From NCBI GenBank assembly GCA_017626595.1, contig JAGAIJ010000097.1:1-49598 (forward strand): a stretch of 49,598 nt of DNA, given 5' to 3'. The notes under the pieces were generated by a model. The model had not been told where the DNA came from, searched no databases, and saw nothing but the letters and a program-made list of their open reading frames with translations. Position 1 is the first letter of the stretch. Each line of letters starts with the position of its first letter. The position numbers were made by a program, and so were the translations under genes. This DNA comes from Clostridia bacterium. Its GTDB lineage: Bacteria; Bacillota; Clostridia; Monoglobales; Monoglobaceae. Shown piece by piece: positions 19,325 through 21,806 of the stretch.

Positions 19325-19352
19325 TTATTTGTCCAACGGCTTCATTGTGGGG
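19325..19352 (-). repeat. Duplicated 3' end of lysS (distal attachment-site-like copy)
   Basis: This 28-base segment matches 21779-21806 at 26 positions, with a 17-base identical core (19332-19348). On the minus strand it reads PTMKPLDK-stop, the last eight codons of lysS plus its stop, but it is not attached to the rest of the gene. It marks the far boundary of the insertion. Confidence 0.85.
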
Positions 19353-19361
19353 TCGTAAGTT
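19351..19361 (+). repeat. GGTCGTAAGTT repeat at the distal end of the insertion
   Basis: An 11-base copy identical to 21730-21740, immediately inside the duplicated lysS end and overlapping the stop codon of the M56-LCP gene. Its place suggests a recombinase or accessory-factor binding site. Confidence 0.6.
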
Positions 19362-21183
19362 AGTTTATACCAGATTGAATGACTTTTTGATTGTTAAAGT
19401 ATTCGTCAAAGTTTATCATTTCGGAACGCTTCAAATCTTTTGTTGCTTCGGCATATAGTTCATACACGGGCATTTCATTAAGTAATGTTACTCTACCTGA
19501 AATAGTTTCAAAAATAATATTATTGCTGTTGATAGCACTTATTATTTTCATATCTTGTTTCAGGTTGCTTATAGGATAATTTGTCTTTATGTTACCAGAA
19601 ATAACCTTAAATATTTCAGGTGCTTTATCAATATTATCTTTGTTTAGTTTCTGCTTTATAAAATCTTTGATAAATTGTTGGTGCAGTTGTATTCTGGACA
19701 AATCTCCCTCTGGATAACCCCTTCTGAACTGTAACAACTGACAAACACCATCACCATTCAAGGTATGAACACCTTTTTTCAAGTTAATATGCAAGTCTTG
19801 ATAAGGGTCATCATAAACCATATCCATAGGCACTTCAAAATCTATTCCACCTACATTATCAACTATTTCTTTTACTGCTGTTAAATCCATTTTTGCATAG
19901 TAATGTATAGGAACAGATAGGGTGGTCTTTATAGTATCAATTAGTTCTTGATCACCATTTTCTGTTGTCAAAATATCAGAAATCCTTTTATCTTCTACAA
20001 GGGTGTTTCTGGGAATTGAAAGACCTTTAATTCCATTTTCCTTAACTGTTAATAACATTATTGTGTCTGCTCTGTCATTATTATCAAGACCAACAAACAA
20101 CAAATTAAAATCATTTCCTGTTACTTGGTCTGTATTCAGTTCCATTATTGAATTATTATCTGCTTTAAGAAAAGCACCATTTAATATACCACTTGCCAAA
20201 AGTGTTATAGTCAAAATCAGAACTGCTATAATACCAGATATAATTGCAACTTTTTTGTTAGGTTTTAATTTTTTCTTAATCATAGCAAACCTCCTTTTAA
20301 GAGTTTTCTTATTTCCTGTCATTCCTGTTGTTAGGGGTATAGCCTTTGAATTATTATGTGTTAAAAGTGATAATATAGTTTCCACATATCCCTTTTTTGC
20401 TTGTTCATCCATTTCCTTTACTACTGCCAAATCACAAGATATTTCACAATCTATGTTTATCTGCTTACTGATAAGATAAATTGCAGGATTAAACCAATGA
20501 ACACATTTGACTATGCTGACAAACCATTTATACAAAATATCATTTCTTTTCAGGTGTGTCATTTCATGAGCCAACACATTATGTAATTGTTCTGGTGTAA
20601 TATTTGTTTTAGGCAGTAATAGTGTAGGTCTGATTATACCAATCATAAGGGGTGAGCAAATTGTATCACTTACCCTTGTTCTGATTTTCCTGTTTGTATA
20701 TGCTTTTGCTTCTGGACAAGAAATAATTTCTGAATGTTTATGTATTTTAATCAGGAACATCAGATAACTTACTATCTTTATCAGGAATAGCAAAGCTGCA
20801 CCCATTAACCAAATAAAAGAGAACAGAATAACTTTACCACTCAAAAAGTCCTTTATGCCCTGAACTGTTGATACCTTTTCAGGCTGTGTAGGCTGTGCTT
20901 GTATAATCTGCTCCGGCTGTGTTTCAATTATAGGTGTTTCAGTATTTTCAAACTGATTATCTGTAATTGTTACTGTTTCAGAAATGGGTGGTGTAGTTGC
21001 AGGTTTTTCAGGTAGATTTAATCTTATAGGCAACACCATTACCAGAAGTACAACCAACCACATATAATAATGCCAACCACCAGAAAAGATCTTCCTTGTT
21101 ATAGGCTTTAACAAAGTAAGTATTAAGGCAAGAGCTGTGCCTATCCCAGAAGTAAGGAGAAGTGTTGTAAATATTTGAGCCAT
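19360..21183 (-). CDS. BlaR1-like M56 metalloprotease fused to an LCP (LytR-CpsA-Psr) domain
   Basis: The 607-residue protein joins two families. Residues 1-300 form a BlaR1/MecR1-type M56 membrane protease: membrane helices at about 2-25, 38-54 and 118-146, zinc motif HEMTH at 206-210 and a likely third ligand E247 in DCEISCD. A cytoplasmic basic stretch (KRR at 296-298) is close to where BlaR1 is known to cut itself. After a fourth helix (311-333), residues about 358-550 form an LCP domain: LLFVGLD, RADTIML (R371, D373), SIPRNT (389-394), FRRGYPEGDLSR (R487, R488, D494, R497). Canonical BlaR1 has a penicillin-binding sensor here. LCP enzymes transfer lipid-linked polymers to peptidoglycan. 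The family aspartate in SIPRDT is asparagine here. It follows the blaI-like gene by 3 bases. A role as an envelope sensor is inferred. Confidence 0.85.
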   Translation of the reverse strand: MAQIFTTLLLTSGIGTALALILTLLKPITRKIFSGGWHYYMWLVVLLVMVLPIRLNLPEKPATTPPISETVTITDNQFENTETPIIETQPEQIIQAQPTQPEKVSTVQGIKDFLSGKVILFSFIWLMGAALLFLIKIVSYLMFLIKIHKHSEIISCPEAKAYTNRKIRTRVSDTICSPLMIGIIRPTLLLPKTNITPEQLHNVLAHEMTHLKRNDILYKWFVSIVKCVHWFNPAIYLISKQINIDCEISCDLAVVKEMDEQAKKGYVETILSLLTHNNSKAIPLTTGMTGNKKTLKRRFAMIKKKLKPNKKVAIISGIIAVLILTITLLASGILNGAFLKADNNSIMELNTDQVTGNDFNLLFVGLDNNDRADTIMLLTVKENGIKGLSIPRNTLVEDKRISDILTTENGDQELIDTIKTTLSVPIHYYAKMDLTAVKEIVDNVGGIDFEVPMDMVYDDPYQDLHINLKKGVHTLNGDGVCQLLQFRRGYPEGDLSRIQLHQQFIKDFIKQKLNKDNIDKAPEIFKVISGNIKTNYPISNLKQDMKIISAINSNNIIFETISGRVTLLNEMPVYELYAEATKDLKRSEMINFDEYFNNQKVIQSGIN

Positions 21184-21584: not shown

Positions 21585-21596
21585 CTACACTTGTAG
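21585..21596. promoter_or_regulatory. Operator palindrome with TACA-N2-TGTA core
   Basis: CTACACTTGTAG is a palindrome with core TACA-CT-TGTA, the core shape of BlaI/MecI/CopY operators. It lies just downstream of the expected transcription start of the blaI-like gene. Confidence 0.8.
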
Positions 21597-21599
21597 TTT

Positions 21600-21627
21600 A
21601 TTTCATTCTACCACAGTAGAATGAAAT
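21600..21627. promoter_or_regulatory. Long perfect operator palindrome over the -10 element
   Basis: A 28-bp perfect inverted repeat with 12-base arms and central CACA. It includes the whole -10 box and reaches to the base before the -35 box, so a bound repressor would exclude RNA polymerase. Confidence 0.85.
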
Positions 21628-21633
21628 TGTCAA
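21605..21633 (-). promoter_or_regulatory. Promoter of the blaI-like / M56-LCP operon
   Basis: The minus strand has -35 TTGACA (21628-21633), 17-base spacer, -10 TAGAAT (21605-21610): near-consensus and therefore strong when not repressed. Confidence 0.9.
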
Positions 21634-21718: not shown

Positions 21719-21740
21719 GGTCGTAAATTGGTCGTAAGTT
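21719..21740 (+). repeat. Tandem GGTCGTAA repeats at the lysS-proximal end of the insertion
   Basis: Two abutting 11-base units, GGTCGTAAATT (21719-21729) and GGTCGTAAGTT (21730-21740). A third copy lies at the other end (19351-19361). Short direct repeats inside both ends are usual for tyrosine recombinase arm sites; this assignment is inference. Confidence 0.6.
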
Positions 21741-21778
21741 TTGTCTTTCAATCTTCGAAAACCTTGATTTTACGCCAT

Positions 21779-21806
21779 TTATTTATCCAACGGCTTCATT
21801 GTTGGG
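21779..21806 (-). repeat. lysS-proximal copy of the boundary repeat
   Basis: The last codons and stop of intact lysS; 26 of 28 bases match 19325-19352. The core 21786-21802 is identical. Confidence 0.85.

Follow-up and report, generated by a model that had tools for sequence, protein, structure and literature searches.

The locus raises the question of whether a receptor of the BlaR1 type can carry a domain of the LCP transferases as its sensor and, if so, what such a receptor would read. The window, as we call the whole analysed stretch of 49,598 nucleotides, holds on its minus strand a single frame of 607 codons without an internal stop (21183..19360), starting three bases after the 123-codon gene of a BlaI-type repressor (Table 1).

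The protease-LCP fusion and its relatives

A preliminary description had read this frame as an M56 metalloprotease continuing into an LCP domain, next to a BlaI-type repressor, and the profile searches bore out both the frame and the pairing, with every motif it named found at the residues given. The Pfam domains Peptidase_M56 (residues 11-302) and LytR_cpsA_psr (371-511) both scored far above their curated cut-offs, the latter with 97.2 bits against 24.6, and the LCP domain model of NCBIfam (TIGR00350) reached 88.8 bits against 62.3. The NCBIfam model of the BlaR1 beta-lactam sensor (NF000326) gave 137.5 bits, below its cut-off of 400, its match stopping at residue 367, and the Pfam and NCBIfam searches found no penicillin-binding domain in the frame. 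Sequence matches in the PDB were to BlaR1 (8exp) over the first part and to TagU/TagV over residues 358-585, and an AlphaFold model of the fusion had a pLDDT of 41, too low to interpret.

The same architecture, PF05569 followed by PF03816, is present in five further genes of other genomes, coding for 977 (L003), 599 (L004), 598 (L066), 591 (L067) and 757 (L068) amino acids. A chimeric assembly of the M56 and LCP parts is thereby ruled out, and the fusion is a correct observation and no artefact. The concern about a chimera or frameshift, voiced in the preliminary description, thus fell away for this join. A second joint lies between the LCP domain and an integrase tail of about 31 residues. 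The loci L003 (80%) and L004 (71%) come from other uncultured gut Clostridia, the other three fusions were obtained by genome search (G009, G040 and G240 for L067, L066 and L068, respectively), and a family search placed the L003 gene also in G024. No further fusions were found in 51 genomes of the order or in samples of 391 genomes of the class and 398 of the phylum; therefore, the combination is rare and, as far as these genomes show, confined to this class of Clostridia, with none outside the class among the 398 phylum genomes, for which at most two candidates were scored per genome. Plasmids and viral contigs likewise yielded no BlaR1 relatives with an LCP domain.

Table 1. Features of the receptor locus and of related M56 proteins; positions are those of the window unless a locus is named.
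Feature	Position	Strand	Basis
attR core, copy of lysS 3' end	19325..19350	-	sequence
Fused 3' end of Tn916-type integrase gene (residues ~577-607, stop, TTACGACC)	19351..19455	-	97% DNA, L005; 91% aa, L070 integrase (PF00589/PF02920)
Candidate internal product, Met301-607, 307 residues, one membrane helix and LCP	19360..20283	-	suggested by conservation counts
LCP-derived ectodomain, residues ~345-577 (Pfam core 371-511 = 20073-19651)	19453..20151	-	PF03816 1.3e-27; TagU 9.7e-20; residue table
M56 (BlaR1-type) metalloprotease domain, residues 11-302	20278..21153	-	PF05569 1.4e-54; BlaR1 8exp alignment
Internal Shine-Dalgarno AGGAGG (20295-20290), 6 nt, ATG (20283-20281 = Met301)	20281..20295	-	conserved beyond synonymous shuffles; replicated
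Autocleavage-loop equivalent, residues 284-300 (LTTGMTGNKKTLKRRFA)	20284..20334	-	aligned to BlaR1 L280-S283|F284...R293-R294
BlaI-type repressor, 123 aa	21187..21558	-	PF03965 (Penicillinase_R) 9.7e-34; 96-98% identical to BlaI of L003, L004, L070
BlaI-type operator 2, CTACAAGTGTAG (contains TACAAGTGTA)	21585..21596	-	sequence and comparison across loci
blaI operon promoter TTGACA-17-TAGAAT	21605..21633	-	sequence; other loci with same layout
BlaI-type operator 1, TTCTACTGTGGTAGAA, overlaps -10 box	21606..21621	-	sequence and comparison across loci
Element left end, two TTACGACC repeats (candidate integrase arm sites)	21719..21778	-	identical arrangement in L005/L070
attL core = lysS 3' end	21779..21805	-	copy at 19325-19350; same junction after lysS in L005
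M56 proteins with IEGxYIIY-like end and SLH-domain gene downstream	L003:4499-5203, L068:277-1527, L108:2749-3987, L126:6183-6836, L127:2113-2802

Conserved receptor machinery and a proposed degenerate, exchangeable sensor

According to the cryo-EM study of BlaR1, the essential elements of this receptor are HEXXH, EXXXD, D210, Y261 and R294, the last contributed by a swapped helix; the protein cleaves itself at S283|F284, with a bulky P1' residue, and its loop EL1 occupies the active site of the sensor (PMC9834060). Alignment to BlaR1 places the window counterparts at H206/E207/H210, E247/D251, D215, Y266 and R298, and L284 and M288 at the P4 Leu and the bulky P1' position, so that the predicted autocleavage site LTTG|M aligns to LSHS|F, before the last helix. 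The essential residues are kept in the window as well as in each of the five fused relatives, the exception being Met at P1'. On the side of the repressor, CTACTGTGGTAG covers the -10 box of the operon promoter and CTACAAGTGTAG lies downstream of it, and most of about 30 related loci likewise have this operator pair with a -10 box. Searching the own genome (81% complete) for further operators gave nine loose matches against ten in a reversed control, and thus no excess.

For the sensor half, seven M56-linked LCP domains (the six fused ones and that of L069, which sits on a polypeptide of its own) were aligned with TagU and compared with 13 stand-alone LCPs from the same genomes, with residue numbers and roles taken from a review and transferred to the window by alignment (PMC7831098). 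The equivalents of Cps2A D234, D246, R267, R364, D371 and R374 are kept in all seven, and the window residues D367, D373, R392 and R497 correspond to the Mg/pyrophosphate residues D234, D246, R267 and R374. Acceptor-side residues have been lost: the Asn of the KIN segment is replaced by Ser or Thr in 7/7, R362 by Gln in six (L067 retains it), and Q378 is missing in six (L066 retains it), the window having Q485, H501 and the Ser of RIS at R362, Q378 and the KIN Asn, respectively. R362 corresponds to TagT R219, for which a role has been proposed when the peptidoglycan acceptor attacks; K135/N137 of Staphylococcus aureus LcpA adjoin proposed peptidoglycan sites (PMC7831098). All listed residues are present in 12 of the 13 stand-alone LCPs, the exception being a degenerate protein unlinked to M56. 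Because donor-pyrophosphate and Mg residues are kept and acceptor-side residues lost, the alignment suggests that the ectodomain is a ligand-binding pseudo-transferase; loss of transfer is our inference, since L067 keeps R362 and L066 Q378, and pyrophosphatase activity may remain. Separately, L103 (G240, contig C53) is a stand-alone LCP-like protein unlinked to M56 from which most catalytic residues are gone, possibly another non-enzymatic LCP.

The M56-linked LCPs form one clade (support 97/99), and yet on a tree of M56 cores the LCP label requires three changes and its bearers stand on separate parts of the tree. The nearest neighbour of the window on that tree is L070, whose M56 core is 91% identical and whose ectodomain, Cu_amine_oxidN1, is unrelated to LCP; homology at the DNA level ends at residue ~304, just past the LKRRF motif. 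From the single LCP clade, the three changes and this break in homology we read the LCP sensor as a swappable module that has been exchanged between receptors. The same M56 core is found elsewhere with Cu_amine_oxidN1, M23 and other ectodomains. The M23 (LytM-type) peptidase domain lies outside the membrane in two M56 receptors (L069:8937-10904 and L108:3984-6545).

At the far end of the domain, the window LCP is probably whole, because L004 and L067 end directly after theirs. The L003 protein has about 400 more residues than that of the window and a gene for an SLH protein behind it. An SLH-domain gene stands immediately downstream of 5/5 M56 proteins ending in a domain of about 120 residues with an IEGxYIIY-like motif (two by Pfam, three by motif), which has no Pfam match itself; two of these proteins are M56-LCP. 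As the SLH gene tracks this domain and not LCP, an SLH partner as general target of the LCP receptors is ruled out.

Receptors of this kind also occur in split form. Three loci (L069:3011-8792, L129:2127-5619 and L132:6280-10739) encode a short M56 protein without an ectodomain and, behind it, one or more separate proteins with a single helix, which start with TTKMSADKKxLQxRFxKIRS, the BlaR1 autocleavage loop with its Arg, and carry DUF4825, Cu_amine_oxidN1, LCP or other ectodomains. A separate polypeptide could supply the last helix to the short M56 protein, which is conceivable because in BlaR1 this helix is swapped between protomers.

A mobile-element remnant and a candidate internal translation start

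Four features had been missed in the preliminary description, namely the tail derived from an integrase, the mobile element, the exchange of sensor modules and a candidate internal translation start. Residues ~577-607 of the receptor (YAEATKDLKRSEMINFDEYFNNQKVIQSGIN) match the C-terminal end of the Tn916-type integrase of L005/L070 at 91% identity over 33 aa, and the underlying DNA matches at 97% over 105 nt (L005:16201-16305); by this comparison the last ~31 residues are integrase tail and not LCP, and the LCP domain appears complete to its last strand before the joint. Beyond the joint follow attR and a terminator-like hairpin, and TTACGACC repeats are present at both element ends in the window. 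In the sister genome G001, homology to the window runs to the stop codon of lysS and stops there, and no copy of the receptor was found in that genome.

A full relative is seen in L070 (6753-15680), where an integrative element at lysS carries a BlaI-M56 cassette. In L005 and L070 the order is lysS, the same junction of about 60 nt, BlaI, the M56 protein, a viral-type Rep (in L070 related to the Rep of small DNA viruses, PF02407 + PF00910), an FtsK-like protein, a Tn916-type Xis and the integrase; attR of the L070 element was not found within the stretch read. Between the window and the L070 genome LysS is 54% identical, against 96% for BlaI and 91% for the M56 core, from which we conclude that the cassette moved, as judged by these identities, by horizontal transfer. 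Complete int, xis, rep and coupling genes are absent between the attachment sites of the window, where only the int 3' end and the att cores are found, and the operon lies in what a deletion has left, about 2.4 kb, of an integrative element inserted at the 3' end of lysS. Because it sits in such a remnant, the operon may control only itself and host genes.

The receptor gene further contains an internal Shine-Dalgarno sequence and ATG after the autocleavage loop, and 30 other M56 genes have them at the equivalent position. Of the 24 M56 genes that have a Met directly ahead of the last helix, 19 have AGGAG or GGAGG at start distance, compared with 3.2 expected from synonymous codon shuffles (sd 1.6, maximum 10 in 2000); as controls, 7/480 other in-frame ATGs and 0/6 genes without the Met have the motif. 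In a second, independent set of 30 M56 genes drawn from the phylum, the motif is present in 12/14 genes with the Met, in 0/16 without it and at 6/340 other ATGs. Pooled over both sets, and with counts that are not independent as the genes are related, the motif is present in 31/33 genes with RR and Met and in 0/3 with RR and no Met, a split that speaks against an effect of codons or pausing alone. Inheritance alone is unlikely to explain the motif, since many families are covered and synonymous sites are saturated. The mRNA structure at the start showed nothing unusual, and none of the papers listed by a literature search concerned an internal start in BlaR1. Three fused genes (L003, L067 and L068) lack the motif, and the internal start is thus unnecessary for an LCP sensor as such. 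These counts suggest that the gene may also make a sensor-only product consisting of helix 4 and the ectodomain. Slightly short of an even chance, in our estimate, is the wider reading that many genes of the BlaR1 family in Bacillota encode two products, of which the sensor-only one would act as a decoy or partner tuning the receptor, the window having an anchored LCP-like second product and LCP being a swappable pseudo-enzyme that senses wall-polymer precursors.

Proposed mechanism, alternatives and known systems

The preliminary description had suggested that the receptor senses polyprenyl-linked polymers or their blocked attachment and thereby relieves BlaI repression. This is partly supported by the kept BlaR1-essential residues, the two operators and the loss of acceptor-side with retention of donor-side residues. 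We consider the chances evenly balanced that the protein is a BlaR1-type receptor protease with a degenerate LCP sensor, whose pocket would probably bind polyprenyl-pyrophosphate-linked wall glycopolymer with no transfer to peptidoglycan. At rest, BlaI would keep its own operon shut at both operators, and the extracellular loop that connects helices 2 and 3 (residues ~57-118) would fill or cover the pocket of the LCP domain in the manner of EL1 in BlaR1. Lipid-linked polymer that accumulates, for example when ligation is blocked, would enter the pocket and displace the loop, the last helix would move, the protease would let go of its autocleaved loop (G287|M288 equivalent) and cut BlaI, and the operon would be derepressed. 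In this scheme we infer ligand, loop competition, BlaI cleavage and output alike.

Several other explanations were weighed against this sensor reading. The LCP domain might read peptidoglycan, free glycan or envelope spacing as one among several interchangeable envelope-binding ectodomains (Cu_amine_oxidN1, M23, DUF4825), without binding lipid-linked polymer, which would suit the occurrence of the same M56 core with Cu_amine_oxidN1, M23 and other ectodomains and the SLH-protein gene adjoining M56 proteins with the shared C-terminal domain, two being M56-LCP; we regard this as rather unlikely, though, as the donor-pyrophosphate residues are kept and the acceptor side lost, the reverse of what a peptidoglycan reader would be expected to have. 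A further reading, in part already considered in the preliminary description, takes the protein for an active LCP enzyme that controls its own amount through its protease half, so that signalling would serve dosage only and the internal start would yield free enzyme. Most catalytic residues do remain, and the internal product would have the build of a stand-alone LCP (short tail, one helix, LCP domain), but the acceptor-side losses extend to all M56-linked LCPs and the internal start is conserved equally in genes with other ectodomains, which makes this distinctly unlikely. A sensor is favoured over such a protease-dosed enzyme because the BlaR1 residues are kept, the operators conserved, and the LCP acceptor side lost with the donor side kept.

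The two remaining alternatives concern this particular copy. In the first, the mobile element has left the operon behind to decay or lie idle, and the receptor works only in intact homologues. The gene does run into the last int codons, rep, coupling and xis genes are absent, and the closest M56-LCP relative has about 400 extra residues and an adjoining SLH gene, both missing from the window. We nevertheless regard this as unlikely: neither the frame, the promoter, the operators and the repressor nor any key residue shows damage, and the end of the LCP domain is about that seen in L004 and L067, which carry nothing further. Very unlikely, finally, is an assembly error at the LCP-integrase joint, with a different native C-terminus. 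The sequence does come from one draft genome of 137 contigs, but a proper attR and a terminator-like hairpin follow the joint, which is short and has no long repeat to mislead an assembler.

If the sensor reading is true, a gut bacterium could sense the state of wall building instead of an antibiotic, and the system would offer a direct route to studying how Gram-positive bacteria sense lipid-linked wall polymers, which is poorly understood. The penicillin-resistance receptor would then be one case of a plug-in design with retired wall enzymes as sensors, and the conserved internal start, if real, would add a second product to a well-studied family of drug-resistance regulators. Already known are the BlaR1-BlaI logic, the LCP enzymes and M56 proteins for other signals (PetP, copper); our literature search found nothing on an M56-LCP receptor, and new as far as that search goes are the LCP sensor, the acceptor-side loss, the module shuffling and the internal start.

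With BlaR1/MecR1 and BlaI/MecI the window system shares the M56 gluzincin signature HEXXH...EXXXD, the conserved Asp, Tyr and Arg-Arg, the autocleavage loop, the BlaI-type repressor, the dual palindromic operator and a sensor placed after the fourth helix. It differs from them in that the sensor is an LCP relative and not a penicillin-binding or class D beta-lactamase domain, that no beta-lactamase or PBP gene is attached, that P1' is Met and not Phe, and that there is a candidate internal translation start. The beta-lactamase-like sensor of BlaR1 is acylated with very slow turnover (PMC7593790); in parallel to it, the sensor of the window would be a retired transferase that still binds lipid-linked polymer. 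The PetP-PetR copper switch of cyanobacteria likewise combines a BlaR1-like protease and a BlaI-like repressor for a signal other than beta-lactams; its signal is copper, and no LCP ectodomain is described there (PMC7896320). TagT/TagU/TagV, LcpA and Cps2A share with the window the fold family by profile, the donor-side residues and the membrane anchor before the domain, whereas the window domain is fused to a protease, has lost acceptor-side residues and the KIN segment, and belongs to a clade of its own. As to Tn916-type elements, the full relative L070 carries a Tn916-type Int, Xis and FtsK-like protein, but the element resides at the lysS 3' end and has a viral-type Rep, and in the window it is reduced to about 2.4 kb without these genes.
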